DNA from: a virus
Length of the DNA: 52,993 nucleotides
Virus record (IMG/VR): IMGVR_UViG_3300049793_000140
Span: 1 to 52,993 of that record
Strand: one strand, 5' to 3'
The notes beneath the pieces were generated by a model. That model was not told the origin of the DNA and did not search any database. It saw only the letters and a list, made by a program, of their open reading frames with translations. Positions within the stretch are counted from its first letter, which is position 1. Each line of letters starts with the position of its first letter. Below are positions 4,350 through 28,115 of the stretch, one piece after another. The position numbers and the translations under genes were made by a program.

Positions 4350-5204
4350 TCATAGCCATTTCACCCCCGGACTGCCCAACTCCGTGAGGACCTCCAACGC
4401 CAGCCGCGCGGAGAGGCAAAGATATTTGTCCGCACTGTCCGCACTGTCCTCACTGGCCTCACTGGCCGCACTGGCCGCCCTGTCCGCACTGTCCGCACTG
4501 TCCGCACTGTCCTCACTGGCCGCACTGTCCGCACTGGCCCCACTGGCCGCCCTGGCCTCACTGGCCGCATTGGCCGCCCTGGCCGCACTGTCCGCACTGG
4601 CCTCACTGTCCGCACTGGCCGCACTGGCCACCCAGGCCGCCCTGGCCGCCCTGTCCGCACTGGCCGCACTGGCCACCCAGGCCGCCCTGGCCGCCCTGGC
4701 CGCACTGTCCGCATTTCCTTCGCGCTCACAATAATCGGCGGCGGCTAAGACGGTTGGCTCACCGGGGAAAATCTGACGGAACAAAGCTGGCAGCAGAATA
4801 CGGATCGTTTTCTCGGCCAACCGCCTCGTGAACTCTCGATCATCTACTACGCCACGCGACCCGATTTGAGCAATACCCAGATCCCGCAAACCGCTCGCCC
4901 GAGCCGCGGACGAGGACCAGCACGAGTCGTTCAAGTTGATTTTGTACCTCCGCACCGCCTCGGCGACACATTCAGGGTTGTCCCCAAATGGCAGATCGAG
5001 TGCGACACAAATGGCCGCCTCAATACACATCTGCCCATTTCTCTGGCCCAGCCCCTCGCACAGTCCGCGTGCCAGAATCTCATCAAACCGCCCGATCGTT
5101 TTAGGAAAATCAATTTCCAGTGGGATTTGCATTTTTGGTTTTGTTTTCTTTTCTCCAACTCCTGAATTTTTTCCGCCCATGTCGCAATATTCGCATTTGT
5201 TCAT
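4350..5204 (-). CDS. Ala/Ser/Asp-repeat protein with a conserved N-terminal domain
   Basis: A 284-residue protein in three parts. Residues 1-25 hold a CEYC pair and a Lys-rich stretch. Residues about 30-165 form a compact helical domain (RFDEILARGLCEGLG, MCIEAAICVALDLPFGD, SARASGLRDLGIAQIGS-like segments) that looks like a family seen in environmental phages and plasmids, function unknown. Residues about 165-258 are a low-complexity Ala/Ser/Asp/Arg repeat encoded by a 9-base minisatellite. A short tail (LCLSARLALEVLTELGSPG) closes the protein. The repeat is probably helical and tunable in length. Confidence 0.75.
   Translation of the reverse strand: MNKCEYCDMGGKNSGVGEKKTKPKMQIPLEIDFPKTIGRFDEILARGLCEGLGQRNGQMCIEAAICVALDLPFGDNPECVAEAVRRYKINLNDSCWSSSAARASGLRDLGIAQIGSRGVVDDREFTRRLAEKTIRILLPALFRQIFPGEPTVLAAADYCEREGNADSAARAARAAWVASAASADRAARAAWVASAASADSEASADSAARAANAASEARAASGASADSAASEDSADSADSADRAASAASEASEDSADSADKYLCLSARLALEVLTELGSPGVKWL
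4429..4712. repeat. 9-base minisatellite, about 31 units
   Basis: On the plus strand the unit is close to TCCGCACTG, varying as GCCGCACTG, GCCGCCCTG and TCCTCACTG. It also has a higher-order repeat: GCACTGGCCACCCAG occurs twice, 45 bases (five units) apart. In the coding strand each unit supplies three codons, giving Ser-Ala-Asp / Arg-Ala-Ala type triplets. The absence of stops makes several other frames spuriously open. Confidence 0.9.
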
Positions 5205-5212
5205 CCATTGAT

Positions 5213-5581
5213 CTATTCGTTCGTCAGCTTCTCGTCGTCGCCTGCGTGGTGCGGTTCGTAGCTGCTCTCCCGGTCTTTGTCTTCCGCGTCCAACTTTTCG
5301 TCAACCTCAGTGATTTGCTCGAACTCCGCGACCCGCTCCACAATCCTAAGCGCAGCTTCCGCAAATCGGTTGTCCGCTTCGGTGCCGGATTCCAGCGCCT
5401 TGGCGACATACTCAACGATCGCGTTCAGGTCCCGCGCGCATTGGTTGCGCCATTCCTCGTTGTGCGCTTTGTCGTCGTATTGGATATTGCAGCGCTCAAC
5501 TTGACTCTTGGGAGGCCGTGCAGCGAGCGCGACGTAAACAGCGTTCAGGTTGGCTTCCATCAGTTTGATTTCGTTGCTCAT
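5213..5581 (-). CDS. Hypothetical helical acidic protein
   Basis: A 122-residue mainly helical protein (MSNEIKLMEANLNAVYVALAARPP at the start, then NQCARDLNAIVEYVAKALES and AALRIVERVAEFEQ). It ends in a disordered acidic tail rich in Glu and Asp. There is no signal or membrane segment. Its start overlaps the stop of the upstream small gene by ATGA, and it ends 8 bases before the minisatellite gene. No family is recognised. Confidence 0.62.
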   Translation of the reverse strand: MSNEIKLMEANLNAVYVALAARPPKSQVERCNIQYDDKAHNEEWRNQCARDLNAIVEYVAKALESGTEADNRFAEAALRIVERVAEFEQITEVDEKLDAEDKDRESSYEPHHAGDDEKLTNE

Positions 5582-5757
5582 GCCGGGAGAGTGGGAGATT
5601 GCGGTCGTGATAGCTCGTTGCCTTGCGTTGATTTCTTACGCTTCCGACCTTTCGGCCAACCGCCGAGTTTCGCGTTCTCTCGCACGGCCAGCGTCTTCGC
5701 CTTGGAGGTAGCTTTTCCTCCAAGGCGCCCAAGGACTAAAGCAGCCGGATTTTTCAT
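5578..5757 (-). CDS. Small basic LGxxGG-motif protein
   Basis: A 59-residue protein from the ATG at 5757, which has AGGT 7 bases upstream; an upstream start at 5772 is also open. The sequence MKNPAALVLGRLGGKATSKA..LAVRENAKLGGWPKGRKRKK belongs to a widespread style of tiny plasmid and phage proteins with LGRxGG and a basic tail. The protein at 3293-3529 shares the N-terminal motif. An inverted repeat lies just ahead of the start. Probable nucleic-acid binding is inference from charge and motif. Confidence 0.6.
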   Translation of the reverse strand: MKNPAALVLGRLGGKATSKAKTLAVRENAKLGGWPKGRKRKKSTQGNELSRPQSPTLPA

Positions 5758-5759
5758 TG

Positions 5760-5792
5760 AATACCTACACAATAGCTGAGCAGTTAGGTATT
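5760..5792. promoter_or_regulatory. Inverted repeat ahead of the small-gene cluster
   Basis: AATACCTA (5760-5767) and TAGGTATT (5785-5792) form an 8-base inverted repeat with a 17-base spacer, ending two bases before the ATG at 5757. It could be an operator or an mRNA hairpin that masks the start. The surrounding gap 5793-5885 holds no gene that I can support. Confidence 0.4.
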
Positions 5793-5885
5793 ACAAGAGG
5801 AATCGCAAACTATTTTCTGCCTCTGTTCGCGGTCCCTCCCGGAGAGCGCCCACATTTCAAGCCCTTTAATTTCGGAAAGGGTCAT

Positions 5886-6290
5886 TTACCCATTTTTAAG
5901 TTTCTGTTCAGCAAGAAAGTCATCAATGATACGTTGTTTCTCAAGGTCGTTTCGCGTTTGAGTTGCGAGTGCTTTCGCCTGATTTGAATTGTGGTCATCG
6001 GAAATTTTACGTGCAGCGACGGCTTCTAATATTTTCTCTGGATCTTGAGTAAGCCGGGCTACTGCTTCCTGAGCGCTAGCCGCCGTTGCGAGTGCCGTGC
6101 CGAGCGGTCCATCGACCGATTTTTTGATCTCGGACGTGGTATTTTTAATCTCGGCAATTTCTCGATTGTTTTTCTGGCGATGCTTTTTCGACCACCACAT
6201 CGCCATAAATTGCATGATCGCCAAGCCGAGCAATGCCAGATTGTTGATTGCCGTCGAATATCCAGAGTCTATGGCAGAAAACTGTATCAT
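5886..6290 (-). CDS. Membrane-anchored coiled-coil protein; holin or inner-membrane spanin candidate
   Basis: A 134-residue protein with one N-terminal membrane segment (about residues 13-33, AINNLALLGLAIMQFMAMWW), then a Lys/Arg cluster (SKKHRQKNNR) and a long hydrophilic helical domain. The layout of one N-terminal anchor plus coiled-coil fits an inner-membrane spanin, and single-anchor holins also exist. Its start overlaps the beta-helix spike stop by ATGA, so it is the last gene of the fibre block, where lysis genes often sit. No endolysin is adjacent, which weakens a firm lysis call. Confidence 0.6.
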   Translation of the reverse strand: MIQFSAIDSGYSTAINNLALLGLAIMQFMAMWWSKKHRQKNNREIAEIKNTTSEIKKSVDGPLGTALATAASAQEAVARLTQDPEKILEAVAARKISDDHNSNQAKALATQTRNDLEKQRIIDDFLAEQKLKNG

Positions 6291-8800
6291 AATCGTGTTC
6301 CTCTTCGTCGAGATTTAGCACCGTGCACATTCGTAAGGCTGGTCAGCGGTGCATTCGTAAATGCCGCGAACCGGCTTGCATCAGCACTTAATATCACAGT
6401 GACGTTGCTATTTCCAGACGAAGCCGATGAACCATCGAGGTTTTTCCAGTCAACGAACACCTGCCCATTTGTCAGCGTCGGCGGTGCGCTTAATTGGACC
6501 GATGTGGAGGCAGGATATGTGCGTGTGAATCCCGTAATGCCATTGGACAAGGAGTTGACATCTATCACCGAAAGGGAGATCGGAACGCCCGTCGCCGGAT
6601 TGATCGAACCGACTACAAGGTCGTGATTCACCGGAGCCGGCGCAACGTATGTTGCGACGAAGCTCGCCGGGCTGACTACGAGGTTCGCGCTATTGGCTAT
6701 AATCGTGAAAGCTACAGAAGTCGTGAAATCGACCCCGTTCTTGCTCCATTTCTGGAAATTGTTGCCTCCGGCTGTAGTCGGCGCGGTGACAGTAATCGAC
6801 ACGCCATCGTTGTTTGTTCGGTTGAACGAGGTTACGCCAGCCCCGAGACCGCCGTTGTCATTCGGAGAATATCCAATCGTCACGCCACTCGCGGGATTCA
6901 CGCTCGCGAATGAGAGCGTCCACGTCACAATCGGAGGTGCGATATAAGTTGCCTGCCAAGTCTCGTTCGTCGTCACCGTGAAACTGACGGTGTTGGTAAA
7001 GGCAAAGTCTACCCCAGCGCGGCGCCATTTGCTGAAATTGTTTGTGCCGGCAGTAAGCGGGGCTGCGAGCGTGACGGGCGTGCCGAATAGATAGTTGCGT
7101 ATGAAGCTAGTGGTGCCGGTCGAATTGCCGTCGATATCCGAGGTAGCTATTATCGAGAAGCCGTTGGCCGGCGAGCTGGTTACGGTGATGACATTCGTCG
7201 GCGTGGATGCTGCGCCAGTGATTCGTTCCAGCACGAAGGCTCCAAACTTTGGGAAAGTCTTTGGCCCGGTAACCGTACTCGAGCCGTGAGGTAAGGCCAC
7301 AGTGTGGGATGCTGCCAGCATATTCAGCGTGATCACGTTACCAGGCAGGGTATTGGTTGTGATGTCCACCAGGTAGTCTTGTGCGTTGCGGACACGCACA
7401 GAATCCAGCGTGCTCCAGCCAAGAGTAGCGAGGTTCACCGCAATCGTGGAACCCAGCGACCAATTGTAGGCCGCGATCTGAGCCCGGTTCGTGTCGTACT
7501 GGTTGGGTTGCAGGACAACGTGGTTGGTCGTCGGCAATAAGTTGATCGTGGAGTTATCATCAAACGGCGTGCCGGCAATCCAATTGGCCAGGCTCACCGG
7601 AGCCAATCCCTCGACGCGGAATCCTTGCGCGTTAGTTGGCGTGAAAAAGTAATGATTACGGTCCACTGTCCAGCCCGGAACGATTGTCGTTCCACTGATC
7701 GGGATGTAATCGAACAATTTGGCTGTGGGCGAGTCGATCACTGTGTTGTCCACTATCAGCGCGTTGGTCCACGAGCCTCCCTGCAAGCCGCCCAGACCGA
7801 TGTAATTGTTCGTCACTTCGATCGATGTTGCGTTGATCGAGGTGAAGTAAATGAATACGAGGTCGCTGTTGAACTGAAGATTGTTCCAGACATGATTATC
7901 CCCCTCGTCCCCGTCTTTTCGGCCACCAACTAGCAGCCGGTTGTTTACCAGGATATTGTGGTGAATGAGATAATGGTACACCGACGCTGAACCAGATCCG
8001 TAAGCTTGGATGCTGTTGTCGTAATTGTTAAGAACGACGTTGTAGGAAATGTCCTTTGACTCGCGCGCCGCCGTATTTTGGGTGTAAAATCCATGTCCGT
8101 GAAGCTGCGTCACGCCCACCCATCCATTATTATAGACCACGTTATTGCGTGCGAAAAGTCGACTGGATTGTTGCCAGGCAGATATGCCCGTGCTGACATC
8201 GTGCACTACGAGGTTTTCGATGATGTTGGATTGTCCAAAATTATAGAGGCCGTCGCTCAGAAAGAAATCGGTTGGGAAAGACGGATCAGTCGGCGGTATG
8301 CAAGTCGGACAAGAGACCGTTGAACTAAACCTGTCGGCAGTGCTCGATGAGGTGATTTCGAAGTTGCGCAAGTGAAGGAAGCGCCCCTTGGTGGCGTCGC
8401 TCGATGAGCCTAGCATCAGCGTTGGGCGTGCGGTGGCATGGTACTCGAAGGGTGCGCCAAAGGCTTGGCCATCGATGATTGCCCATTCGTTTGTCGCACT
8501 CTCAACGATGATTTCATTTGCGTAGGCACCGCTGATCAATGCCTGGAAGATGTCGCCTTCGTTGCCTCCAGCCACGTAATGCTCTGGCGAATTCGTAAAC
8601 GCACCTCCTCTCAATTCTAGCTTGTCACCCCCCACTAATGTAGCGGTCTTCGCAAGTGCGGTTCTCAGATCCCAAGGACTAGCAATGGAGCCTGTTCCGC
8701 CAGCCGTGCCATTAGTGGCCGCGAAATAGATCGCTGCTCCCGCAGACTCAGAAAGCATGAGCGCGACGGCTAACAATACTGAGAAAACAATGAGCTTCAT
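6287..8800 (-). CDS. Secreted-type right-handed beta-helix spike with C-terminal InlB-like repeats
   Basis: An 837-residue protein with a Sec signal (MKLIVFSVLLAVALMLSESAGA, cleavage near residue 22). Residues about 25-400 show beta-helix rungs with N-rich turns (NIIENLVVHDVSTGI, RNNVVYNNG, SYNVVLNNYDNS), the fold of pectate-lyase-like and tail-spike depolymerases. The C-terminal third holds three tandem repeats of about 85 residues with the pattern (F)xRTxxxGxxVxLxAPxTxGxxxFxxW, like divergent InlB B-repeats of bacterial surface proteins. Active-site residues cannot be assigned. The protein probably binds or cuts a surface polysaccharide; it could be a virion spike or an exported enzyme. Confidence 0.85.
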   Translation of the reverse strand: MKLIVFSVLLAVALMLSESAGAAIYFAATNGTAGGTGSIASPWDLRTALAKTATLVGGDKLELRGGAFTNSPEHYVAGGNEGDIFQALISGAYANEIIVESATNEWAIIDGQAFGAPFEYHATARPTLMLGSSSDATKGRFLHLRNFEITSSSTADRFSSTVSCPTCIPPTDPSFPTDFFLSDGLYNFGQSNIIENLVVHDVSTGISAWQQSSRLFARNNVVYNNGWVGVTQLHGHGFYTQNTAARESKDISYNVVLNNYDNSIQAYGSGSASVYHYLIHHNILVNNRLLVGGRKDGDEGDNHVWNNLQFNSDLVFIYFTSINATSIEVTNNYIGLGGLQGGSWTNALIVDNTVIDSPTAKLFDYIPISGTTIVPGWTVDRNHYFFTPTNAQGFRVEGLAPVSLANWIAGTPFDDNSTINLLPTTNHVVLQPNQYDTNRAQIAAYNWSLGSTIAVNLATLGWSTLDSVRVRNAQDYLVDITTNTLPGNVITLNMLAASHTVALPHGSSTVTGPKTFPKFGAFVLERITGAASTPTNVITVTSSPANGFSIIATSDIDGNSTGTTSFIRNYLFGTPVTLAAPLTAGTNNFSKWRRAGVDFAFTNTVSFTVTTNETWQATYIAPPIVTWTLSFASVNPASGVTIGYSPNDNGGLGAGVTSFNRTNNDGVSITVTAPTTAGGNNFQKWSKNGVDFTTSVAFTIIANSANLVVSPASFVATYVAPAPVNHDLVVGSINPATGVPISLSVIDVNSLSNGITGFTRTYPASTSVQLSAPPTLTNGQVFVDWKNLDGSSASSGNSNVTVILSADASRFAAFTNAPLTSLTNVHGAKSRRRGTRL

Positions 8801-8934
8801 TAAAATATTGTCTTCTGATTATCCACACTGTACAGTCCAAGGAACACCGCCATAATTGAAAGGCTTTCGCATGGATGGTCTGTCGACCAAGCCCTTACGC
8901 GCCCATTCCAGCGATACCGCAAAAAGTCTCGCAT
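8800..8934 (-). CDS. 44-residue small protein between fibre genes
   Basis: An ATG at 8934 lies 6 bases after the stop of the upstream 139-residue gene. The frame ends at a TAA that shares one base with the ATG of the beta-helix gene (TAATG). The product starts MRDFLRYRWNGRVRAW and has a mildly hydrophobic middle (SIMAVFLGLYS). The tight junctions on both sides, matching the coupling used throughout this genome, argue that it is translated. Function unknown. Confidence 0.5.
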   Translation of the reverse strand: MRDFLRYRWNGRVRAWSTDHPCESLSIMAVFLGLYSVDNQKTIF

Positions 8935-8940
8935 GATTGC

Positions 8941-9360
8941 TTAGGGCGTCAACCATAGCTCGTTTCCTACAGCTTCGATTAACAAGGCTCCCCTGACTTG
9001 ATTAGTTGGAATTACTCCAAACCAAAAAACGTTGTTCGTCTGAAATCTCAGCGATAAGCCTGCGGGATTGCTCCAGTAAAGCGTGGTGAAAGCACTAGGA
9101 GCAAAGTTTGTAAATGTGAAGATGGGCGGCGAGCTGACGAATCGAATCAATCGCGGGCCGAGCTTCGCATCTACAGCATCGTTTGGAAGTGCAATCAAAA
9201 GAGTGCTCGCGTTGGTAATAATGAAAATGTTTGTGACGTAAGTGATGTTAGTTGACGGCGGCAATGGAATGTCGGCACTGAGAAGGATTGGCACACGCAC
9301 AGTTTGAGCTTGAATTCCAAGCGCGAGCAAGTTGGCTAAAAGCAAGAGAAACGTTTTCAT
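8941..9360 (-). CDS. Small exported protein of the fibre block
   Basis: A 139-residue protein with a clear Sec signal (MKTFLLLLANLLALGIQA, then QTVRVP). The mature part is beta-rich with Asn/Thr runs (NITYVTNIFIITNAS, FTFTNFAPSAFTTLYWS). It looks like a single compact sandwich domain. It overlaps the glycoside hydrolase gene by ATGA and sits upstream of the 44-residue gene. Its size suggests a fibre tip, chaperone or partner subunit, but no family is recognised. The export signal is directly visible; the role is inference. Confidence 0.65.
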   Translation of the reverse strand: MKTFLLLLANLLALGIQAQTVRVPILLSADIPLPPSTNITYVTNIFIITNASTLLIALPNDAVDAKLGPRLIRFVSSPPIFTFTNFAPSAFTTLYWSNPAGLSLRFQTNNVFWFGVIPTNQVRGALLIEAVGNELWLTP

Positions 9361-11834
9361 TGGACTGGTAGTTTGAATGGCGACTTGCGTTTGCGGTGTG
9401 GCGTTGTCGGCGAAGGCACGGTAGGATTGAACACGTACGAGTATTCTGCGGAATTCCCGACGTTATCCATCGCTGTCACATAAAAGGTGTGGTTGCCGCC
9501 CGCCAGATTCGAGATCCACACGTGGTTGCTAGGCGAGTAAGCGGTATAACTGTCGCTGTCGAAGTGCCATTTGTAAACGATGTTTGTCGCGGTCGCGGTC
9601 GTGGTCCATGGGATGATTTTGGTATCGCACGCACTCCACTTGATCAATGTTGGATTTGCATCACCACTCCACGGGCCGGAAGGAGCCACGTCAAATGCAA
9701 TCGTTGGAGCCACCGTATCGGTCACTGTCGCGATGCTGGCCTGCTTCACATCGTTGGATAATTGAGCAAACGAAAGACTGCTGCTGATCAAGTATTGTGG
9801 GGTGCGCGTAATGGTGAATACTGCGGTATTCGTTGCCACCTGATTACCCATCACGTCCACGATGCCGACGCCCGTTGTGTTGGTGAGGGTGAGGCTCTTG
9901 AGAGTGCGGTCGTAATTCCATGCAGCAACCACTGAACCAGCCCCGTTCGTAAACCCAAACAAATCCATCGTAGTCGCCGATGAGTTGGTAATTTTTCCCA
10001 GGCCTAACCCGGTAAACGACTTGGCCATCAACAGGGCAACTCCATGAGGTGTTTCCGAGCAGTTATACTCAACGACCGTCGGATCAGTAGGCGATAGGTC
10101 TACCATTACGTCATTGTAGTATTTGCTCCAGTAATTCACGTAACGCATTCCCCATCCTAATGAGCGCAGCGCGGCATAGAGGCACCGATCCACATTGTAC
10201 TGGGAGCGTTGTTGCTTCTCGTTTCGAAGGGTCTCGGGTGAGAACGTCTCGGCCAGTGAAAAGTTGCCTTCGCGCAACGAATCCATCGTCTTCATGCCGC
10301 CGACACTCCAACCGCCCGATTCCGTGTTCCACACGGGCCGTATTCCGGCAAAAGCCCGCGCCCAATCTTGCATTGAAGCAAAATGAACATCACTTTCTGA
10401 AGCGTTGGGATCGGCTGAGCCGTCTTGTGGGTAAATGTGACCGGATACCGCGCTTACTTTTGCCTGCGTGCCGGCTGATAGCGCGTTCCAAATTGTCAGC
10501 GCGTCAGCGGCATGAGCCATTCCCCCGAAGGCTATAATATAGGCTTGCGGATCGGCATCGAGGATTGTCTTCACCGAATCGGTAATCATTGAGGCTATCC
10601 CGGTCAGATTTGTACCCAAGCCAACAGAATCCCATACCGATGCATTCGGCTCGTTCCAAGTCTCCCAGAAATGAATGTTGTACGGCGATTGGCTGTAGCG
10701 ATTGACCACTTGATAAACATAGTTGGTATATGCTGAAAAATTCGGACTCCCGTCGCCATTAGTCGCCCATGTGGGCCAAGCCAGGCCCGGGTACAGATTG
10801 CAAATCGGAACCATTCCGTTCGTCGCGATATTTGCCACCGCAGCATCATTGTAGACGAAAGCGCCGCTTGTGGGCTGAACCGTTGTCCAGCGCACCCCAC
10901 CAATCGGTGAGAGGTCGCGAGCGAAGGCAAATCCACTCCGGCGTTCGCGCAGCATGTGATAAGGCAAATAGTTTGGATGCGTGCCGATGATTCCGTTTGT
11001 ATCCTGCGTCGTGGCGACGGCGTAGGGCAGCACAGCGACCGACGTTTCATCAAAGGAATCGTTTGAACCATAGAGACGACTGATAATGCGCATATAACCG
11101 TTTTGCGTCGGCAATGCGACTGTGACCGTTTTGTTCGTGTTTGCGCTGAGAGCCACGGAGATTGAATTCGAAGCGACCAGGCGGTTGAGGTAGTCGTAAA
11201 TCAGGTATTGGCCCGTGGCGATTGCGGCCGCTCCATCATTCCAGAACCTATACCGGAATTGTTTGGTATCCCCAGAGAGAAGCAGATTATCAGCATCGGC
11301 GGTGTCGAGGCCAAGTTCTACCGGATATTCCGGGGAATACGTCGTAGCGCTTGAACCGGTCTCAAGCTGCACCGCGTCAACGAGTGTGTCGTTGACCAAC
11401 ACGTTCGCCGAGTAAATCTTAGCGTGATACATGCCGTTTGTGCTGAGCGTTGCCGTTGTGCTGAATCTCTGCCAGCCATTGGTAAACGTGACGGAGGTCG
11501 GAGGGGCTGCTTTCAGTTCCCCGCCGCCCATGATTCCAATCTTAACAGTGATGCTCGTTGGACTCCGGCCATACACGCTCATGGTATATGTGCCAGCCGT
11601 GAGCCACATCGCCCTGGAGATGATTCGGGAACCCAGTCGGAATGAGGTAGCCCCATGCCAGGCATCGGAGGTTCGCAGTTCGCCTGCCGAAGAATCAGCG
11701 TTTCCCTTGTTGTCGTTGCCGACGTAATAGATCCAGCCGCGCCCAGGCCCGCACTCAAAGGAGGAGTTTGGAATCAGGTTCGCCGCGCTGGCGCTCAAGA
11801 CCACGCTCCAAAGAAAGACGGCGACTGCTTTCAT
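9357..11834 (-). CDS. Secreted glycoside hydrolase, TIM-barrel clan GH-A-like, with binding domains
   Basis: An 825-residue protein with Sec signal MKAVAVFLWSVVLSASA. Residues about 20-165 form a carbohydrate-binding-type jelly roll (NLIPNSSFECGPGRGW start). Residues about 270-620 form a barrel like GH39/GH5-type enzymes, with the acid/base motif WETWNEPN (Glu395) and the nucleophile motif VWNTESGGW (Glu505). A beta-sandwich follows, then an Ig-like domain (about 705-805, NLAGGNHTFYVTAMDNVGN). It probably cleaves a host capsule or environmental polysaccharide; the substrate is not predictable from sequence. It overlaps both neighbours by ATGA inside the fibre block. Confidence 0.85.
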   Translation of the reverse strand: MKAVAVFLWSVVLSASAANLIPNSSFECGPGRGWIYYVGNDNKGNADSSAGELRTSDAWHGATSFRLGSRIISRAMWLTAGTYTMSVYGRSPTSITVKIGIMGGGELKAAPPTSVTFTNGWQRFSTTATLSTNGMYHAKIYSANVLVNDTLVDAVQLETGSSATTYSPEYPVELGLDTADADNLLLSGDTKQFRYRFWNDGAAAIATGQYLIYDYLNRLVASNSISVALSANTNKTVTVALPTQNGYMRIISRLYGSNDSFDETSVAVLPYAVATTQDTNGIIGTHPNYLPYHMLRERRSGFAFARDLSPIGGVRWTTVQPTSGAFVYNDAAVANIATNGMVPICNLYPGLAWPTWATNGDGSPNFSAYTNYVYQVVNRYSQSPYNIHFWETWNEPNASVWDSVGLGTNLTGIASMITDSVKTILDADPQAYIIAFGGMAHAADALTIWNALSAGTQAKVSAVSGHIYPQDGSADPNASESDVHFASMQDWARAFAGIRPVWNTESGGWSVGGMKTMDSLREGNFSLAETFSPETLRNEKQQRSQYNVDRCLYAALRSLGWGMRYVNYWSKYYNDVMVDLSPTDPTVVEYNCSETPHGVALLMAKSFTGLGLGKITNSSATTMDLFGFTNGAGSVVAAWNYDRTLKSLTLTNTTGVGIVDVMGNQVATNTAVFTITRTPQYLISSSLSFAQLSNDVKQASIATVTDTVAPTIAFDVAPSGPWSGDANPTLIKWSACDTKIIPWTTTATATNIVYKWHFDSDSYTAYSPSNHVWISNLAGGNHTFYVTAMDNVGNSAEYSYVFNPTVPSPTTPHRKRKSPFKLPVQ

Positions 11835-13330
11835 TGGGAAAAGGTCGAAGTCGCTGAACGGATACTTGTCCCCTGCGCTGCGCCAATGTCCGGCTTGCCA
11901 ACTGTGCCGGTGTAACTCGCGGCAGTCTCGGTGAATGTTCCGCGCCCGGTTCCCTTGGCACCCACCAGGTTTATCCGGAAATCTCCGTTCGCCGGATCAA
12001 CCCAGGGGGTAGCATTAGCCGTGTACGTCTGTGAGTTGACGATATTGATACCGGCAATGGTGTTGATTTGCCCGAGATAATTGGTTTGGGTGCCAGACCC
12101 GAAGCCGCAATTGATGATTAAGCCATTGCGAAGCGTAGCCGATCCAGATGTGTTAATCCCCCAGCCGCCATTTTTCACAAAATTGGAATTCTCGATCAGT
12201 GCAAAACAGGCAGCGGTTGAGTTCAAATCCACTCCGTCGAGAATATTGTTGTACGCGTCGCAGTTCAGAATCCAGTTGGACCCCTGTGACCCAAGCGCAA
12301 AGCCATACTCGCCATTCGTGTCAGAGATGCATTCCGAAAATAAACAGAGTGTCGTTGTGCCAGTCGATACTCTAAAGCCGGATGTGTTTGAGCCGGCATT
12401 GTCGTGAGAAATACAGCGTATAAATTCGGTTCCGGTGACGGCATCGAAGAAACCTGCGAGGGCCGCCGTATTACTCTGATTGCAAGCGTAGGCTTCGCAC
12501 TCGATCAATGTCGATGATGCCGTGGCAACATTAACGCCATGCCCGCGAACGCTATTGACGACGACTCCCTGAATAAGACATTCGCCGCCCGTAGCCGAAA
12601 TGCCCGCCGCTGAACCGGTCGAACCGTTGTTTTGGATAATGCAATCAACCAAATCATTATTGACTCCACTCAGGGTAAAGGCGGTGTAACTTGATCCGCT
12701 AGTCGCTCCCGCAATCGTGAACTTTCCGCCGTCCCGAACGCTTGTAGTGTACCCTTGCCAGCGGGTTGGGCCGGCGAGCGAGTGCGTTATTCCCGCTGTC
12801 ATGCTGTAGGAGGTGCCGCTTTTGATGTTCACGCAAGGAACGTTTCCACCAGAATCTGTCATGGTATTCTGCACGAAATTAAACGGAAAACTTGCTGCGG
12901 CATTAGGCCCTTTCCATGCGCCGCCATGTTTCAAAGTAGTGGCGCCCAAGGCATCGGTTGCTGGCGCGGTGCCAGATTTGGCCGTCAAGGAAACCGTGAT
13001 TGTCGTTGAGTTAGTTGCCGTCACACGGGCGACGAATGTCGCGACCGTTGCGCCCGACGTGACATAGACGCTCGCCCAATCGCCAAGTGCAACATTGTCC
13101 GCCGCCGGATTGCCGGATGCCACAGTAAAGATCCCGGTCGTGGAATCCCATCCGCCAGCGACAATCGCGCTGGTATAGGTGTGCGCCGCTGAATCTGCGG
13201 TCGTGGAACCTGCGTTAAGATTGTTCCCGGTGGTCTGACAGTAAAATTCGGTGTATGTAGTGGCTGCCTGCATCACCAAAGCCCCCCTCAAAAGAGCCGC
13301 GAAAAGTAAATAAAGAAAAAGCTGCTTCAT
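11831..13330 (-). CDS. Secreted-type beta-helix protein (spike or lyase-like)
   Basis: A 499-residue protein from the ATG at 13330, chosen because it overlaps the giant fibre stop by ATGA and opens directly into a Sec signal (MKQLFLYLLFAALLRGALVMQA). Residues about 150-440 show parallel beta-helix rungs: NNDLVDCIIQNNGS, GECLIQGVVVNSVRGHGVNV, ALIENSNFVKNGGWGI. This is the right-handed helix of pectate-lyase-like and tail-spike proteins. The end (PANGDFRINLVGAKGTG..PDIGAAQG) matches the C-terminal signature of such bacterial exported beta-helix proteins. Catalytic residues are not identifiable. Confidence 0.83.
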   Translation of the reverse strand: MKQLFLYLLFAALLRGALVMQAATTYTEFYCQTTGNNLNAGSTTADSAAHTYTSAIVAGGWDSTTGIFTVASGNPAADNVALGDWASVYVTSGATVATFVARVTATNSTTITVSLTAKSGTAPATDALGATTLKHGGAWKGPNAAASFPFNFVQNTMTDSGGNVPCVNIKSGTSYSMTAGITHSLAGPTRWQGYTTSVRDGGKFTIAGATSGSSYTAFTLSGVNNDLVDCIIQNNGSTGSAAGISATGGECLIQGVVVNSVRGHGVNVATASSTLIECEAYACNQSNTAALAGFFDAVTGTEFIRCISHDNAGSNTSGFRVSTGTTTLCLFSECISDTNGEYGFALGSQGSNWILNCDAYNNILDGVDLNSTAACFALIENSNFVKNGGWGINTSGSATLRNGLIINCGFGSGTQTNYLGQINTIAGINIVNSQTYTANATPWVDPANGDFRINLVGAKGTGRGTFTETAASYTGTVGKPDIGAAQGTSIRSATSTFSQ

Positions 13331-16300
13331 TTCGTGAGTTGGAGTTGAAAAGTTAACTCGGTTGCCGCCGAACAAGCGGTCAGGTCAAAAGCGAAAATAT
13401 CTCCCGCCGTGACCGTGGTTGAAGTGAAGTCTGTAACCGTGGTGCTGTTCGTCGCGGTTCCCGAAGTAATCCCCAAGCCAGCCGTATTTATTAAATTCGA
13501 GGAGGTCGGATGAGCATTCCCGGAACCGATTTTCCAGCAATTCACGGTCGCCGTTCCTGTGTCTAAGACGATGCTCCAACCGGTGATCGTGGCGCTGTAT
13601 TCGCAAACCGCAAAGCCAGTCCTTTTGCCGGTGGCAATGATCGAGCCGCCGCCGTCCGAAGTGAAACCTAGCGTTGCCAGTTTTAGATTAGTCGCCAGGG
13701 TCGGGCTTGTGGCTGTGCCGGCCAAGTCGCCGGCGAGTTTGATTACGCCGGTCGCCGCTGTGGTCGCATTGCTGACAGTTAACGTTAGATCTGTGCTAAG
13801 ATCCCCCCCGCCAGCGAGTGGACCGGTTGTTGATATTGTCCGTGCATATGGAACTTTTGCCGCCCAGCCGGTGCTTGCAGAGCCGGATTCCTTCCAATAC
13901 ATCGTTGATCCCGCGCCACCGTCTGTACGGATCCAAATGTCTCCAACATTGCCTTGCTGGGCGCTTTCGGGGCTGCCCGTGCCTTTCTTGATCGTCGGGC
14001 CATTGTTTCCGAGCTGCCAGCGCGTCACGTTCGCGTTGCCGAGGGCAAAGGAGTTGTTGTTTGTTGCAAGTGCGCCGAAACCCGCCTGCGTCGTGTTCGT
14101 ATAGGTCAACGTCCCATTGCCATCGAAGTACCCTGCCTGCGCGCCCAAATAGGTATTGTAAGCCCCGGTCAAATTGTCATAGCCGGATCGTGCGCCCAGG
14201 CCGGAGTTTGAGTCAGATGTTGTTGTGTTTTTGAGAACCTCGGCGCCAAGCCCGGAATTGTAATTGCCCGTCGTGTTGCCGTTGCCGGAATACCAACCTA
14301 CGAAACTATTTGAATAGCTGTTTCCAGTCGTTCCGAGGGAAGCGCGTCCGATTGCGATGTTTTTTGAAGCGCTTACTTTGGTCAGTGCTGTATAACCGAG
14401 AATCACGTTGTCACCGCCGTCCGTCAAGTTTTGTCCAGCCTGGCGGCCTATGCCGAGATTGCCCGCGCCAGTGGTTAGATTTTCCAATGCATTTTCTCCG
14501 AGGCCCAAGTTGTTGATCGACCCTGCGATCGTCAGGAAAGTGTTTGTGCCCCCGAGCGCCAGTTGATTTGTCGAAATGAAATACCAAGCGCCTTGCGTCA
14601 GATTACCACCTGACCAAATGGCGTCAAAATTGTCTTCGCCTGTGCCGGATAATCCGCCGCTGGACGGAAACGTGAGCGCGTCTCCGGACGCCTCAACGCG
14701 CTGCCAAGTTCCGTTGCTGACACGGAAACCCATCGTAAAGGCAGAATCCGTATCGTTCGTGATGGTGCTTGTGGCTTCCTTCGTCTCCTCCCGCCAGAGG
14801 GCGGTCGTGACAGTCGCCACTTTAATCGTGCCGATCTGCGTCCCTCCGCTGGTATTCGTGCCGGTGATCTTGGCCCAGTAACCATTCGTGGAATCCGGTG
14901 GCATCGGGAGATTGACGCTGAATGTGGAACCGCTGAAGATCCCCCTGTAAAGATTGGTGTTGATGCTGATGGTTGCAGTCCCCGCGCCGGCAATGGTTCC
15001 AAGGTTGTTTTCGGACAAGTCGATGACGTTGGCGAAAAGATTCGTCGTGTTGCTGCCTGGCGGCGTGGCTTGAGTTCCATCGCTCCGCAGGAACGTTGCC
15101 GTACTTCCGGTCAGAAGAAGCGCGTTGGTCATGTGCGCCAGGGTTGCGGCAATGCCGTTTGTCTTGCTGGCATCGACCGCCAAGAGGCCACTGACAGCAA
15201 CGGTGTTCAGGACAGTTCCGGCTAATGCCCCGCCGCCGCCGGGAAATACAAGGGTGTTGCCGAGATAAAGCGAAGTGACATTCGCATTTCCAATTGTCGC
15301 AGTATTGCTGCCGTTACCAGTTGCCTCGGACCCAATAACGATTTCATTAGTGCCTGAGGTTGTTGAAAGCTGCGCATTTTGGCCGACAATAACGTCGTCA
15401 TTCCCGGTTACATTAGCGCTGCCGGCATTAGATCCAACGTCAACATTTCGCGCACCGCCGTTGTTGTTAAAACCGGCATTGTAGCCAACTGCGGTATTGT
15501 TGTCGCCAGAAGTGTCGTGCTGTAGAGCGCCGACGCCAAGCGCTACGTCTTGCAAAGTGGCGCTGGTACTAAATAAAGCGTTTTGCCCCATAGCAATTGA
15601 ATTTTGGCCACCAGTGACTCCGAACATTGCTCCGGGACCAATAGCGGTTAAACCGCTTAGTCCATCCGTCATTGCTCCCAACGCCGCCAAACCAATTCCA
15701 AAACTTGCGTTAGTGTTTACGTTTATAAAACTATTCGTGTCAGCAAATCCCATCCGTTGAGATCCGAGGCGAAACCAAGGAGAATTTGCAAATGTTGTGG
15801 CGCTTGATCGATATGGCAAATAGCCGTCGGTTGGGTTAATCGTTGTCCCGCCGCCCGCACTGAACGCTGCCCAGCCCGTGGTGCCAATGCCGGTTTGCTT
15901 TACGTAAATGATCCCATTTGAATAATCGGTGTACTCGCTTCCAATGTTCGCCGCCTGCACGCCTTCTGGACTTCCCGATCCATGATAAAATCCGAATCGG
16001 ACGGAGGCTGCGTCAGGTGAACCTGCACTCCACAACAAGGGGACAGCATCGTTGAGCCGCATCGAACTTGTATTGAAATACGCAACATCGACCGTGTTGG
16101 CTGCGATACTGATCGCGCCATTGGGATCGCGAAACATACCTCCACCTGGCGAAGCTAAGGTTCCACCTAGACCGATGGCGGGATTGGTAGCATTGCCTTG
16201 ATTCGTAGTAAAAAACGAAGTTGTCGCCGTGAGTGATCCGCTCATCGCCACAACCGACGAAGAAATCCTTTGGAGCGGACTATCCCCAAGCGTGTTGGTT

Positions 16301-18606
16301 CCCGTGGCGTAAGGAATAAAGGCGGGGGTGAATGGGCCGATCTGTTCAACGATCACGTTCGTGCCCCCTGTTGTTACGTTATCGTACTGACCATTATCCT
16401 TGAGCACTTTTAATCCAGTTCCTGCGTAACCGCTAGGAGACTTGACGTAAAAGTTTGTACTCCCATCGTTCTTGTAAATCGTCAGGCTGCTCGGGCCAAA
16501 CTTAAAGTTGTTGGTGCTTCCGAGTGTTCCAGCAAAATTAAATCCGGGGCTAACGTCCACCGTCAAATCACTGTCCAATTCGACAACTTTTGCGGCGTAG
16601 AAAGTCATTTGAGGAACCGAGCCAGCTCCCTCAGCGATCAGCATTTGATACTGGCCAGTCGGAACCGTGCGGTTGAGATAGAGAGTCCGAGATGATTTGC
16701 TGTAAAGAAATTGCGCGTCATCTGAATCAAGAGAATCCCCACTGAGCTTGTGGAAAACAATGTTACCATCGGCGAGCGTGGCAAAAATATTCGTGCCAGT
16801 CCCGCCATATGAAACAGGCAGTGGATTAAACGTCGTGAAATCCGTTGAGTTGGTTTTAACTACGACCCCAACGCCTCCACCAATTTGCGCAATGCCCGCT
16901 GAATTGACGTTCGCTATCTGCTCGGGATCGCTGGCGAATATTCTGCCACCCGATTTCCAAAAATGATAGATATTAACGGCATTCGTATCCACTGCCGGAA
17001 CCACGCCAGATATCCAGGTGAGTTCGTTCACACCTGCCCCCAACGTATTGGTAAATCCGAGAGTGAAGGTCGTGTTCGTGACCGTGAAGCTCACCTGTTG
17101 GCCTTCGGACATATTGATGATCCCCAAGGTCGTATTGCTCGCTAGTTCCTTTGAGAATTCGTTGCCGAGTCCGCCATCAATATTGACCCCGGAAACATCT
17201 CGAATCGTTGTGCTGAGTGGTCCTTCGACGTTAACAATGCCGCCGACCAGCCGTTTGAGCGGCGAATCCAGGAAAGTTTGAGCGTCGAACCGATAAGGGA
17301 TGTACTGATCAGTGGGATTGATGGCGGCTATGTTCGTGATAAATGTGCCATTGAAGAAAAAGTTTGTAAGGAAAGTATTCGTGGATAGGAATGTTATAAT
17401 GTCGCCCTGAATCGTGAAGACGTTGGTCGAAAAGAAGTTGCTGATCACATTAAGGTTAACCACTGTGATGTTCGTTGTGAAAAAGTTACTGGCATAGAAG
17501 TTGACCGCATTAGTGGTTGCCAGAATTGTTACGACAGTGTTGCTCCCGCTATCTGTTGCCGTAACGCCATCGCCGACGAAATTGATGGTCGTTTGTTGGG
17601 ATAGCGCGGCGCCTTCGTCCTCGATCGTGTTGTAGGCATTTGTCACGCCAACGCTGCCAGTGATAGGGACCGACCAGTGACCTGTGCCATCCAGGAATTT
17701 CAAGATGTCGCTGGGGAAAGTTGCGTTGTCGGCGATTCTCAGAGTATCCACCACGCCCCCCGGTTGGGCGAAACGTAGATAATTGGTGCCAAGTGAAATC
17801 GGACTGTTGGAGAGCGTGTGTGTGCCGATCCACATCGGCAATGTGTTGCTCGTTCCACTTCCGAACAAGAGATTGCTCGAACTTCCACCGACAAAAGTAA
17901 CGTTCGTCAGAGTGATCCCGCTGTTAATTGTAATATTCGTTCCGGTAAGAAGAAAAATATTCGTATCGAATCCGATAAGTCCAATCGATTGCCGCCAGGT
18001 CACATGGCCCGAGCCGTCTTGCGCCAAGACGCTGCCAGGCGTTCCCTGAACCGTCGGCAGCGTGTAGGCTAGCCCGTTTATCGCATAGATGAAGTTCGTA
18101 GCTGAATCCGTATAGATTCGAAGGCCGCCAGAGCCGCCGATCTGGAGATACTTTTGGTTGATCTTCAGGCTTGAAGGAATCAGAGAAAGCATAAATTGGT
18201 TCGTGGTATTTCCACCGGTGAGATTGGAGACAAAGGCGGCATAACCTTTAGATGCAGCCGCGCTCAGGACGGCTGCAATTTTCGTGTTATCTCCAGGCGA
18301 CCCATCTCCAACTGCCCCGCCCCAGCGAAAGTCAACCGGCCCACTGAAACGCCGATCATAAGACCAATTTGCATCGTCGGTGGATTGAATTCTGAAAATG
18401 CCGTCCACGAGGATTGACGAATTGGTAATGACAAACAGACCGCCCCCGCCTTGTCCGGGCACGTCGAAGTCTCGGACGAATACGGACTTGTCCAGATTCC
18501 CAATCTTGCGCGTCTTAAGCGCGGCGACGTTTGGCACCTCATCGACGAAGCGTTGGCCCAGGGCAGGCAGGCCAATTAAGAAAAAGATTGCCAGTAATCG
18601 TTTCAT
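13327..18606 (-). CDS. Giant tail fibre/adhesin with Sec signal and YadA-head-like repeats
   Basis: A 1759-residue protein, the largest in the genome. It opens with a Sec signal (MKRLLAIFFLIGLPALG), then a pectate-lyase-like head (DFRWGGAVGDGSPGDNTKI..). Long Asn/Thr-rich beta segments follow, with at least four copies of a module like INPTDGYLPYRSS..TFANSP. Two clusters of left-handed-roll repeats resemble YadA heads (NNTAVGYNAG, NEIVIGSEATGNGSNTATIG; later NNLGLGENALENLTTGAGN). The C-terminal domain ends VTAGDIFAFDLTAC..LTFQLQLTK. A trimeric receptor-binding fibre is the likely role. AAGGA lies 8 bases before the ATG. Confidence 0.88.
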   Translation of the reverse strand: MKRLLAIFFLIGLPALGQRFVDEVPNVAALKTRKIGNLDKSVFVRDFDVPGQGGGGLFVITNSSILVDGIFRIQSTDDANWSYDRRFSGPVDFRWGGAVGDGSPGDNTKIAAVLSAAASKGYAAFVSNLTGGNTTNQFMLSLIPSSLKINQKYLQIGGSGGLRIYTDSATNFIYAINGLAYTLPTVQGTPGSVLAQDGSGHVTWRQSIGLIGFDTNIFLLTGTNITINSGITLTNVTFVGGSSSNLLFGSGTSNTLPMWIGTHTLSNSPISLGTNYLRFAQPGGVVDTLRIADNATFPSDILKFLDGTGHWSVPITGSVGVTNAYNTIEDEGAALSQQTTINFVGDGVTATDSGSNTVVTILATTNAVNFYASNFFTTNITVVNLNVISNFFSTNVFTIQGDIITFLSTNTFLTNFFFNGTFITNIAAINPTDQYIPYRFDAQTFLDSPLKRLVGGIVNVEGPLSTTIRDVSGVNIDGGLGNEFSKELASNTTLGIINMSEGQQVSFTVTNTTFTLGFTNTLGAGVNELTWISGVVPAVDTNAVNIYHFWKSGGRIFASDPEQIANVNSAGIAQIGGGVGVVVKTNSTDFTTFNPLPVSYGGTGTNIFATLADGNIVFHKLSGDSLDSDDAQFLYSKSSRTLYLNRTVPTGQYQMLIAEGAGSVPQMTFYAAKVVELDSDLTVDVSPGFNFAGTLGSTNNFKFGPSSLTIYKNDGSTNFYVKSPSGYAGTGLKVLKDNGQYDNVTTGGTNVIVEQIGPFTPAFIPYATGTNTLGDSPLQRISSSVVAMSGSLTATTSFFTTNQGNATNPAIGLGGTLASPGGGMFRDPNGAISIAANTVDVAYFNTSSMRLNDAVPLLWSAGSPDAASVRFGFYHGSGSPEGVQAANIGSEYTDYSNGIIYVKQTGIGTTGWAAFSAGGGTTINPTDGYLPYRSSATTFANSPWFRLGSQRMGFADTNSFINVNTNASFGIGLAALGAMTDGLSGLTAIGPGAMFGVTGGQNSIAMGQNALFSTSATLQDVALGVGALQHDTSGDNNTAVGYNAGFNNNGGARNVDVGSNAGSANVTGNDDVIVGQNAQLSTTSGTNEIVIGSEATGNGSNTATIGNANVTSLYLGNTLVFPGGGGALAGTVLNTVAVSGLLAVDASKTNGIAATLAHMTNALLLTGSTATFLRSDGTQATPPGSNTTNLFANVIDLSENNLGTIAGAGTATISINTNLYRGIFSGSTFSVNLPMPPDSTNGYWAKITGTNTSGGTQIGTIKVATVTTALWREETKEATSTITNDTDSAFTMGFRVSNGTWQRVEASGDALTFPSSGGLSGTGEDNFDAIWSGGNLTQGAWYFISTNQLALGGTNTFLTIAGSINNLGLGENALENLTTGAGNLGIGRQAGQNLTDGGDNVILGYTALTKVSASKNIAIGRASLGTTGNSYSNSFVGWYSGNGNTTGNYNSGLGAEVLKNTTTSDSNSGLGARSGYDNLTGAYNTYLGAQAGYFDGNGTLTYTNTTQAGFGALATNNNSFALGNANVTRWQLGNNGPTIKKGTGSPESAQQGNVGDIWIRTDGGAGSTMYWKESGSASTGWAAKVPYARTISTTGPLAGGGDLSTDLTLTVSNATTAATGVIKLAGDLAGTATSPTLATNLKLATLGFTSDGGGSIIATGKRTGFAVCEYSATITGWSIVLDTGTATVNCWKIGSGNAHPTSSNLINTAGLGITSGTATNSTTVTDFTSTTVTAGDIFAFDLTACSAATELTFQLQLTK

Positions 18607-18933
18607 CGGGTTATTCCTTTATGCAGTTCGTGTAAGGGATTCCCACCCTTTTTTAGGGCGCAGTTCGATACCGAATACTGCGTTAACAAAAATAAGGTTC
18701 GACGCGCAAAGGGAACACAACCTTTCCAGGTTGTGTGGCCGGAGAAAACGGCGCGGTAAATAAATGTCCGGCTGGGTTGCCCTCCGTCTGCCCCTTGAAA
18801 GAGAGATAGGGGGGAAGGGGGGTTGTGAGAAAGTCTGGTCCGGAGTCTTGTGTTGTTCTTCATGTCTGCTCAAAATATGTCCAACCCGAATTCTTTACAC
18901 ACCGCAATTTGCTCTTTTGCCTTGTCCAGCGGG
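18607..18933 (-). other. 327-base untranslated leader ahead of the giant fibre
   Basis: This gap separates the ejection protein and fibre genes. It holds a perfect hairpin, ACACAACCT-ggaa-AGGTTGTGT in minus-strand RNA (18736-18715), 109 bases before the fibre ATG, and a smaller CCCTaaaaaAGGG. An 86-codon frame (18603-18863) ends in an ATGA overlap with the fibre start, but its product is Pro/Arg-rich and not protein-like, so I do not call it. The region is probably a regulatory leader or processing site. Confidence 0.5.
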
Positions 18934-21924
18934 TCATTTCGGGAAATTACCTGACTTAATAAAGTCTTGCATCTGCTTCTGTTCATCGGTTGGACGTTGT
19001 GACTTTCCAGCCGGCACATCGAATCCAAATGCGTGCCGAATGGAATTCACTATTCCCACTTTCTGAGCCGAATCAGACACATCATCATTCAGTGCTTTCA
19101 AGAATGGCTCGCTGACTGCAACCGCTTTACCAAGGTCTTTGTACAACGAGGAAGGAGTATTAAGAAACCAACTTTCAACGGTGGGATTGGTGAGAGCCAA
19201 TCCGATCATCTTTATTCCAACGAGTTCCTGAATCTCTTTTACGCCGCCTTTTGGGTTGAGCATAATTAAGGACACAGCAGCTTTGATGAGCTTCCCAGTA
19301 GCTGAACCTTTGGAAAATATACCCGTTCCTGCTCCATATTGTTCGGTGATGCGATATGGAGAAAGCGCCGTCGCCAAGTCCTGCATCATATCCATTTTGC
19401 GTTGGCCAATCATCGCAATGTACTTGGGGTTCATCTTGGAATCATTCAGCACCTTTCGCAGAGACACATCATCAATCTTGGGGCCGGCCTTCCTTAGAAT
19501 CTGTTCGAGTGTCTTGCGCTCCAGTTGTTCGGATAAATCGGGATTAGCCCTTGCAATATTTGAAAGCCACTTGATATCGCTCTCCGTTCCAACGTCCATG
19601 AAGCTGTTCAACGCCTTTTCAGCATTGACAGTATTGATGTCGAGAGTTCCAGAAGTGAACTCCTTAATGAGTTGGTTTTTGTAAAGGGTGCTCTGTGCTG
19701 CCGTAGCCGCATACATTCGCTTCACCATGTCCAAAATTGGCGCGTCCGATGCCAACAGTTCCTTAGCTTGGTCCAGCGTGATGCGTCCTTGGCCAATGGC
19801 AATTCTGCGAGCGGCTGCTACCAGCCGATGCAGTCTTGAACCGAAAACCGCATCGGCGATGTCCTTGTTTGGACCCAGGCGATAATCGTCCAATGCTGCG
19901 AGAAATGATTTACCGTCAATCGTGTCGCTACCAAGGCCCATCGTGCTTTTGTTTAGCAAATCATCCATCACCGATCCCCGCAACGCCGTCTCTCCCGGCA
20001 AACCTTTTACTCGGTTCAACGTCTCAAGGAATTGGCTTGGCTTGGATTTCAAACGCTCCAACACAGCCTCATCAGAAACATACCCCGCGCCCTGTGTGCT
20101 CTTACGAAACAAATCATGGAACCCAGGCTCTTCCCAACGGAGGACGTTGCTCTTGTAGAAGTCTTCCGCGATCTTGAGTTTCGTTTTGACCGCTGTTTGG
20201 GGAGGTGCAGCAAGCCATGCTTTTATTGCATCGGTTATAGACCCAGCAATCTGTCTGATGTGACGTGTTGGGATACCCTGCACCGCTTCGCCCTGAGCCG
20301 CTTCGTCATAAAGCATGGATCGCATTTTGATCATCTCTCCAAGATTCATTTCAGGGTCTAACTCGGCACTCAGAAATCGCTTTACTTCAGGGTGTATGAA
20401 TTCGTGGACGGGTTCCTTTCCTTTGACCGTGGCAGTACCGGTGCCTCCGTATTGGTTTACGGTTGTTGCTTGGGACGTGACTGCCCTGCTTGGAACATTC
20501 TTACGGAGGTCGTTTATTTCATCCAAGATTGGCTTCGTTGGAATATTCCTTTGCTGAGCGGCTGGCTCAGAAAAAACATCTCCATATTTGACGTTCTTCT
20601 CGGTCATGTCCGCAGCATGGACTGTTTCTAAACTGCTCCGAGTTACTTTGCCTTTCTCGATTGGACTAAATCCAGAACCGGGACCGACCTTCTCCCCGGC
20701 GATCTTCCGCGTCGTAGCCTGAAGGTCGCCGGTGCCTTTGACTTCAACAGCCTTAGCCGCCGCTGCTGATTCGCCTTCGGTGGCATTGCGAATGCCTTGG
20801 AGTTCATTGACAAGGGTCGCGCCTACCTCTTCGTCGCTTTTTACACCAGCGGTAATAGCCCTGAAGGTTGCATCCTTGCTCGCTTGAATATCAGCCAGTT
20901 TTTTGGCGGCTGATGCTGCGCTTGATGGAAGGCTTTCGATCATCTTTTGGCCCATTGCCAGGATGGGCGATCCGCTAACATCGGCTGGGCTATGGCGGAG
21001 TTTAACGCCAAGCTCTTGTTCCAACCGATCAGCCGCAGCTAATCCCTCAGTCTGAACGGCAGTCTTTGAAAATGAAAAAGGCGCTTGAACGAATTTGAAA
21101 GCTTCGTTGAGCGTCTTGGCAAACCCAGCGGTCAAGTAACCGAATCCTATATCAATGGGCAAATCCTTCAATCCAGTCATCAAAATTCTACCCGGATCAA
21201 TGGGTTGTCCCTGTTCTGACTTCACTGATGCCTGCTGAACTGCTGAAGCGGTTTCCATTCCGATTGATGAAGCCGTGACATCGCGGGCAAAACTTAATTT
21301 TGGCCCGAGATTGCCAAGTCCAGGGACTCTTCGAGCAACAGCCATCCCCAACAACGAGCCGGCTAATTCGGGAGTCTTTGCCGCAAGTTGTGCAAAATCT
21401 CCAAGGTTGATTGAGCGGTCGTTGACAAGGACATCTTTCTCACCTCCCGTATCATCGGGAAGTGTGAGGATGAAGTCCCGACCGTCTTTGGAAACCCGCA
21501 CCTTGCCGGGATACTTTTCCTCCAAGTAGGTGTATTGATCCAAGAAATCTTTTCGTCTTCCAAGTTGATAGCGATCCACCAACGGAACATTCCCGAATGC
21601 CCCTTGTTCTGGACCGGCTATTCCGGCGCGTGTTTCGATTGGGCGAGATGGACCTTCAACGCCAGCAGGCATCGCTGCTGCATTCTCTTGCTGAAACAGT
21701 TGTTCTTTTGTGAGCGGTAAAGAACGCGAGATTTTGGTAACGTACGGAACTGCGGGTCCGTACTTTCGCATTGATTCACGCGCTGCTTCCGTCGTCATCG
21801 GAGACAACGAACCAGAAATGTCTGAAGCCGTTATTGGCTTGGGTTCTAAGGGTTGTCCTGCGACTGGAGTATCAGGAATGGAACCAAGCGCAGCATCAAG
21901 TTCATTGACAAATGTGGCCGGCAT
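18934..21924 (-). CDS. Large internal virion / DNA-ejection protein
   Basis: A 996-residue, mostly helical protein with no signal peptide. Features fit large ejection proteins of podoviruses: a disordered Pro-rich start, amphipathic helices in the middle (SNIGMETASAVQQASVK-like, LPIDIGFGYLTAGFAKTL), long helical arms and a Gly/Ala hydrophobic stretch near the end (AAVSLIMLNPKGG). It shares a TAATG junction with the preceding 401-residue gene, and the three genes from 18.9 to 24 kb form one coupled set. No lytic transglycosylase motif is evident. Function is inferred from position, size and composition. Confidence 0.68.
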   Translation of the reverse strand: MPATFVNELDAALGSIPDTPVAGQPLEPKPITASDISGSLSPMTTEAARESMRKYGPAVPYVTKISRSLPLTKEQLFQQENAAAMPAGVEGPSRPIETRAGIAGPEQGAFGNVPLVDRYQLGRRKDFLDQYTYLEEKYPGKVRVSKDGRDFILTLPDDTGGEKDVLVNDRSINLGDFAQLAAKTPELAGSLLGMAVARRVPGLGNLGPKLSFARDVTASSIGMETASAVQQASVKSEQGQPIDPGRILMTGLKDLPIDIGFGYLTAGFAKTLNEAFKFVQAPFSFSKTAVQTEGLAAADRLEQELGVKLRHSPADVSGSPILAMGQKMIESLPSSAASAAKKLADIQASKDATFRAITAGVKSDEEVGATLVNELQGIRNATEGESAAAAKAVEVKGTGDLQATTRKIAGEKVGPGSGFSPIEKGKVTRSSLETVHAADMTEKNVKYGDVFSEPAAQQRNIPTKPILDEINDLRKNVPSRAVTSQATTVNQYGGTGTATVKGKEPVHEFIHPEVKRFLSAELDPEMNLGEMIKMRSMLYDEAAQGEAVQGIPTRHIRQIAGSITDAIKAWLAAPPQTAVKTKLKIAEDFYKSNVLRWEEPGFHDLFRKSTQGAGYVSDEAVLERLKSKPSQFLETLNRVKGLPGETALRGSVMDDLLNKSTMGLGSDTIDGKSFLAALDDYRLGPNKDIADAVFGSRLHRLVAAARRIAIGQGRITLDQAKELLASDAPILDMVKRMYAATAAQSTLYKNQLIKEFTSGTLDINTVNAEKALNSFMDVGTESDIKWLSNIARANPDLSEQLERKTLEQILRKAGPKIDDVSLRKVLNDSKMNPKYIAMIGQRKMDMMQDLATALSPYRITEQYGAGTGIFSKGSATGKLIKAAVSLIMLNPKGGVKEIQELVGIKMIGLALTNPTVESWFLNTPSSLYKDLGKAVAVSEPFLKALNDDVSDSAQKVGIVNSIRHAFGFDVPAGKSQRPTDEQKQMQDFIKSGNFPK

Positions 21925-28104: not shown

Positions 28105-28115
28105 AAAAGTACTTT

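Follow-up and report, generated by a model that had tools for sequence, protein, structure and literature searches.

Genes with signal peptides in the window

The window analysed here, the whole 52,993 bases of IMG/VR virus record IMGVR_UViG_3300049793_000140 from an uncultivated virus, carries terminase, portal, capsid and tail genes on its minus strand. On the same strand are six genes for which Sec signal peptides had been claimed, and all six open reading frames lie where the original prediction had placed them, with leaders that can be read directly in the sequence: a short positive n-region, a long uncharged hydrophobic core and an AXA-like site. Five of these genes encode a spike/fibre-like protein of 1759 residues with a GDGGGG-type domain, adhesin-like repeats and a DUF5907 repeat (13327-18606); a 499-residue protein (11831-13330); an 825-residue candidate glycoside hydrolase of the GH39/PslG type with a C-terminal Ig-like domain (9357-11834); a small exported-type protein of 139 residues (8941-9360); and an 837-residue beta-helix candidate with three C-terminal repeats (6287-8800). 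The sixth, for a 370-residue adhesin-repeat protein (31796-32908), is found two genes from the major capsid gene. Genes are referred to below by their first coordinate.

The five genes had been described as a coupled block. Overlaps of 4 bases (ATGA) do occur at four junctions (13327/13330, 11831/11834, 9357/9360 and 6287/6290), the last of which couples the end of the block to the gene of a small protein (5886-6290, minus strand; 134 residues, one N-terminal hydrophobic segment by hydropathy, no family match), but a gap of 140 bases (8941/8800) breaks the continuity of the block.

Leaders were called with a home-made fixed rule for Sec/signal peptidase I and lipoprotein leaders, defined by a positive n-region, an 8-residue uncharged core, an AXA-like site and no following transmembrane segment. 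It was calibrated on 48 E. coli K-12 proteins whose classes were taken from annotation and background knowledge: of the 12 exported ones it called 11, and of the 20 cytosolic and 16 membrane proteins none. Six of the 49 open reading frames in the window are called, namely five of the six genes above and a lipoprotein gene (2863-3276), against none of 122 internal methionine positions taken as a null. The pattern of a Sec/signal peptidase I substrate is thus found by rule in five proteins and, in 8941, which fails solely for an asparagine in its core, by eye and through its homologue in the related phage G001. With the cleavage site (slash) chosen by us, as the rule at times places it a few residues earlier, leaders and mature starts are MKLIVFSVLLAVALMLSESAGA/AIYF for 6287, MKTFLLLLANLLALGIQA/QTVR for 8941, MKAVAVFLWSVVLSASA/ANLI for 9357, MKQLFLYLLFAALLRGALVMQA/ATTY for 11831, MKRLLAIFFLIGLPALG/QRFV for 13327 (residues 1-17 by rule) and MKKLLWFWFVVMSFSAFA/APPI for 31796. 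The mature parts of the six proteins show no convincing transmembrane segment (highest 19-residue mean hydropathy 1.70), and neither an anchor for the outer membrane nor a lipobox nor any known signal for sorting was seen on them.

The contrast within one genome that had been pointed out also stands, the collar, tail tube and collagen-like fibre genes (25487-29222, minus strand; starts at 25487, 26287 and 28116) having no leader by rule. The same is true of the virion genes of lambda and P22, in which the rule matches non-virion genes only, such as lom, bor, Rz and RexB.

Recurrence of the leaders in related phages

The terminase search yielded one relative, G001 (38.4 kb, 74% terminase identity), and further relatives came from portal, capsid, spike-domain and tail-tube searches (tail-tube homologues across relatives, 40-75%), all of them metagenomic. 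The portal has no relative among isolate phages, the capsid protein no prophage or host match in a search of bacterial genomes, and the stretch 18934-21924 no relatives in viral contigs. A verrucomicrobial host for the clade would be a guess from residue composition only and is not claimed here; in Verrucophage P8625, none of 52 proteins has a signal peptide (PMC4642752).

The original prediction was open to refutation by leaders going unpredicted, or being unconserved in relatives. That test was run, and the leaders are both predicted and recurrent: leader-bearing genes are present in G001, G002, G003, G027, G028, G032, G033, G038 and L172, with six rule calls in G001 and seven in G002 (58 kb). 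The G001 homologues of 13327, 8941 and 6287 all bear leaders, those of 8941 (31566-32030, 48%, passing the rule) and 6287 (57%) being full-length. Leader-bearing homologues of 13327 occur also in G027, G032, G033 and G002, and partial homologues of 6287 in G032 and G033 reach into the leader. The homologue of 11831 in G032 (5149-6708, 52%) has its own leader and sits within the tail gene cluster, between fibre genes; leader genes are among or directly beside tail genes in G038 and L172 as well. At the place of 31796, G002 has a gene (22688-24391) with a leader and a similar mature start.

Genes that replace members of the set in relatives are leader-bearing too. In G001 a different gene with a Laminin_G_3 domain (32027-32788) takes the place of both 9357 and 11831, and other replacement genes carry seven BACON domains, Big_7 or CBM_4_9. 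A leader-bearing protein of 1373 residues (L165:3863-7984, that is G032 17863-21984) combines Big_7 and beta-propeller repeats with seven domains of the BACON/viral BACON type.

In a simple 2x2 count, leader genes make up 20 of 146 genes in the window, G001 and G002 and 6 of 542 in eleven outgroup records, most of these six being doubtful (P = 8e-10). The count is descriptive, since 8941 was included manually and neither the genes nor the phages are independent of one another. Ten phages with only about 37% portal identity in common have no convincing late leader genes, nor does G029 (capsid 51%). G034 and G035 have one candidate each, and leader genes may thus extend outside the close clade.

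Across relatives, homologous leaders in five gene families are 6-44% identical and the first 30 mature residues 34-70%, the mature stretch being the more similar in every pair, with a small margin in 8941 (44% versus 47%). The leaders thus retain their function as their sequence drifts. In the spike alignment, the mature start QRFVEE is conserved directly after divergent leaders. An alternative start downstream of the leader of 13327 was considered and rejected on the evidence of start codons and conservation, since it would remove this conserved segment; together with the drift, this indicates that the leaders are translated, their character being kept while their letters change.

The spike-like protein

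The product of 13327 matches a tail spike family (phrog_4636, 1.4e-19) and has its DUF5907 repeat near the C-terminus (3.3e-7). Its GDGGGG head domain lies at about mature residue 34, and in four phages of this clade the motif follows 33-35 residues past the leader. In contrast, seven leaderless phage spikes with the motif, among them tail spikes that combine it with Pect-lyase_RHGA_epim (L154, L156-L159, L161), have 126-306 residues ahead of it, and this is where a virion anchor would lie. With only 33-35 residues between leader and motif, 13327 cannot accommodate the N-terminal virion anchor that spikes usually have, and the leaderless anchor domain of a conventional tail spike was not found in it. 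Nor was the conventional right-handed beta-helix body found: PF12708 gives no match in 13327-18606 and is found in six of the seven leaderless comparators. What 13327 does have in common with conventional spikes is the phrog_4636 match and, in its G002 relative, a C-terminal tip domain found also in annotated tail fibres without a leader. The C-terminal domain of 13327 itself has no match in isolate phages, and its head gives only noise against the PDB.

The layout has a bacterial parallel. Secreted pectate-lyase-like proteins of Aquimarina (L142, L144) have their own leaders followed by the same domain at the same distance from the leader as in 13327, although they are encoded by chromosomal genes and have a lyase body, the phage protein having a fibre-like one. 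Microbacterium proteins (L143, L147) carry the GDGGGG domain behind a Tat-like leader.

Other members of the set

The label of hydrolase originally given to 9357 receives weak support, its match to Glyco_hydro_39 (E = 0.01, 15.1 bits) falling below the curated cut-off of 26. The protein also aligns weakly with PslG of Pseudomonas, an exopolysaccharide hydrolase of the GH39 type (PDB 5bx9, E = 0.004-0.006, sub-threshold), in a different domain context. WNEPN and TE motifs align; in GH39 enzymes, NEP and TE motifs hold the catalytic glutamate pair. This candidate has no relative in isolate phages. For 11831 there is no Pfam, PHROG or NCBIfam match, its beta-helix fold being a suggestion of the original prediction, and the NCBIfam search as a whole gave nothing. 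The G001 homologue of 6287 has beta-helix and InlB-repeat matches, both below cut-off (Beta_helix 1e-4, Flg_new_2 0.1); structure prediction for the 6287 family, with two sequences, reached a mean pLDDT of 29. A basic C-terminal tail of 6287, RRRGTRL, is conserved in G001. The adhesin-repeat protein 31796 matches two virion structural families (phrog_6002, phrog_23837) and has repeats in common with 13327.

A short leaderless protein of 107 residues (30939-31262, minus strand) has a Cys-rich start and a GDGLGGG-type domain, with homologues in G027 (54%) and, weakly, in G002. Compared by profile, it is only weakly similar to the head domain of the spike (hhalign probability 10%), and it is possibly a tail-side adaptor. 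Leaderless short proteins that begin ILP...CC and carry a GDG-type motif, found here and in G027 (19736-20065) and G002 (56739-57122), adjoin tail or capsid genes.

An exported set or virion parts

Taken together, the sequences suggest that the late gene set of these podovirus-like phages encodes exported glycan-binding and glycan-degrading proteins, and that these are probably not tail parts assembled in the cytoplasm. The two halves of this reading differ in strength: that the leader-bearing proteins are exported is very likely, and, given export, there is a reasonable case that they are not cytoplasm-assembled tail parts. The export reading draws on the leaders, the conservation of their function, their late-region position, the domain make-up of the proteins and a spike without space for an anchor. 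The set would comprise the spike/adhesin-like fibre, the adhesin-repeat protein, the beta-helix and GH39-like hydrolase candidates and two further proteins that are small or unclassified, with lectin-type (Laminin_G_3), BACON and CBM/Ig proteins standing in for members in relatives. Such a composition resembles that of a bacterial secretome directed at polysaccharides. The late transcript would yield six proteins with an N-terminal Sec signal peptide, each moved across the inner membrane by Sec and presumably cleaved by signal peptidase I. The mature proteins would then act on or beyond the envelope, or in the matrix, where they could bind or cut host surface or matrix polysaccharide and so help progeny to leave and spread. 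Full release would come at lysis, and crossing of the outer membrane before lysis may be unnecessary.

Several observations do not sit easily with an exported set. Both 13327 and 31796 match PHROG tail-spike or virion-structural families, the tip domain of the G002 spike is common to leaderless annotated tail fibres, the leader genes of G032, G038 and L172 lie among or beside tail genes as those of virion parts would, and the hydrolase assignment of 9357 is sub-threshold. The leaders had been read in two ways, as belonging to enzymes and adhesins that the infected cell secretes or as pointing to an unusual route of assembly or release. The first is favoured here because of the conserved leader function, the domains resembling those of host secretomes and the lack of space for an anchor in the spike. 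The second is less probable, although the spike body and the C-terminal tip domains resemble phage fibres and the genes are interleaved with tail genes in relatives.

Such a route could be one in which the lineage uses the Sec system of the host for fibres that bind receptors or act as depolymerases, the spikes crossing the inner membrane, folding and trimerising outside and being attached to tails, during lysis or later, by a leaderless adaptor such as 30939-31262, so that virions are finished outside the cytoplasm. The fibre-like body and tip domains of the spike, the interleaving of leader genes with tail genes and the conservation of the short GDGLGGG-type protein in the window, G027 and G002 all fit this idea. 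In vitro, P22 particles that lack spikes accept added tailspikes, which counts in its favour. However, the adaptor and the spike domain are related by a weak profile similarity, a docking domain was not found, and the companion genes of CAZyme and lectin type are unlike virion parts, and on balance we consider late docking unlikely.

The exported proteins could also stay on the infected cell as adhesins, blocking superinfection or gluing neighbouring cells together for the next round. Adhesin-like repeats in 13327 and 31796, the basic tail of 6287 kept in G001 and the precedent of lambda, whose lom is an exported envelope gene, agree with display at the surface. Against it are the absence of any anchor or sorting signal on the six proteins and the poor fit of the hydrolase-type members, which leave it rather improbable.

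If the hydrophobic N-termini were instead retained, as trimerisation or membrane-piercing parts of virion proteins assembled in the cytoplasm, the family matches of some members to virion structural proteins would be explained. The n-region, core and AXA-like site are nevertheless kept across strongly diverged and unrelated proteins, and the homologous leaderless spikes have a different, long N-terminus, so that we regard retention as very unlikely. That the leaders are passive relics of a recent capture of bacterial secreted genes is suggested by the spike domain layout shared with secreted bacterial proteins, but is largely refuted by the conserved leader function, as several divergent phages still have leaders although these have drifted to 6-44% identity, and genes that came in independently as replacements bear them too; it has next to no plausibility left.

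Relation to known systems

Tailed phages are taught as being assembled wholly in the cytoplasm, with export serving only lysis or a stray accessory gene. Under the preferred reading of an exported set, this clade points to phages that run a secretome while infecting a cell, or perhaps even finish particles outside. It is already known that phages can encode a single exported hydrolase or exported envelope proteins. Gp40 of Xanthomonas phage PBR31 is an esterase with an N-terminal signal peptide, encoded near the lysis genes (PMC10975493), and so resembles the present set, with its hydrolase candidate, in being a phage hydrolase with a Sec-type leader; it is one gene, whereas here several genes are conserved as a set, which includes a spike-like protein and cargo that varies. 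Similarly, lom and bor of lambdoid phages encode leader-bearing proteins that go to the envelope, but they are surface genes of the lysogeny type, unlike a coupled block with spike, CAZyme and lectin content. Among the matches listed from the open-access literature, none describes tailed phages in which several export genes are conserved as a block and the spike bears a leader, and such a block is apparently new. A protein called a tail spike on no other ground than family matches may be misplaced, and a leader in place of an anchor is a sequence test that could be used on large virus collections.

Other features of the window

The lipoprotein gene called by the rule (2863-3276, minus strand) encodes 137 residues with a lipoprotein-type leader (LLGC). 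Small lipoprotein-type genes are found near the equivalent region in G001 and G032, and are possibly related to lysis. Just upstream of the capsid gene, a 110-residue protein (35165-35497, minus strand) starts with MNRRNFLKNSALALFGFTVLPPA, which is like a twin-arginine (Tat) leader. Its C-terminal part is similar to residues 299-329 of the capsid protein (42%), and similar short proteins are encoded in G027 (22257-22490), G003 (8135-8371) and G029 (14174-14536). Between the capsid and portal genes are two methyltransferase genes and a glycosyltransferase gene (35804-39970, minus strand), the first 250 residues of the glycosyltransferase matching G001 and the remainder not. A 284-residue protein (4350-5204, minus strand) has a low-complexity C-terminal half made up of ASADSAARAA-type repeats.
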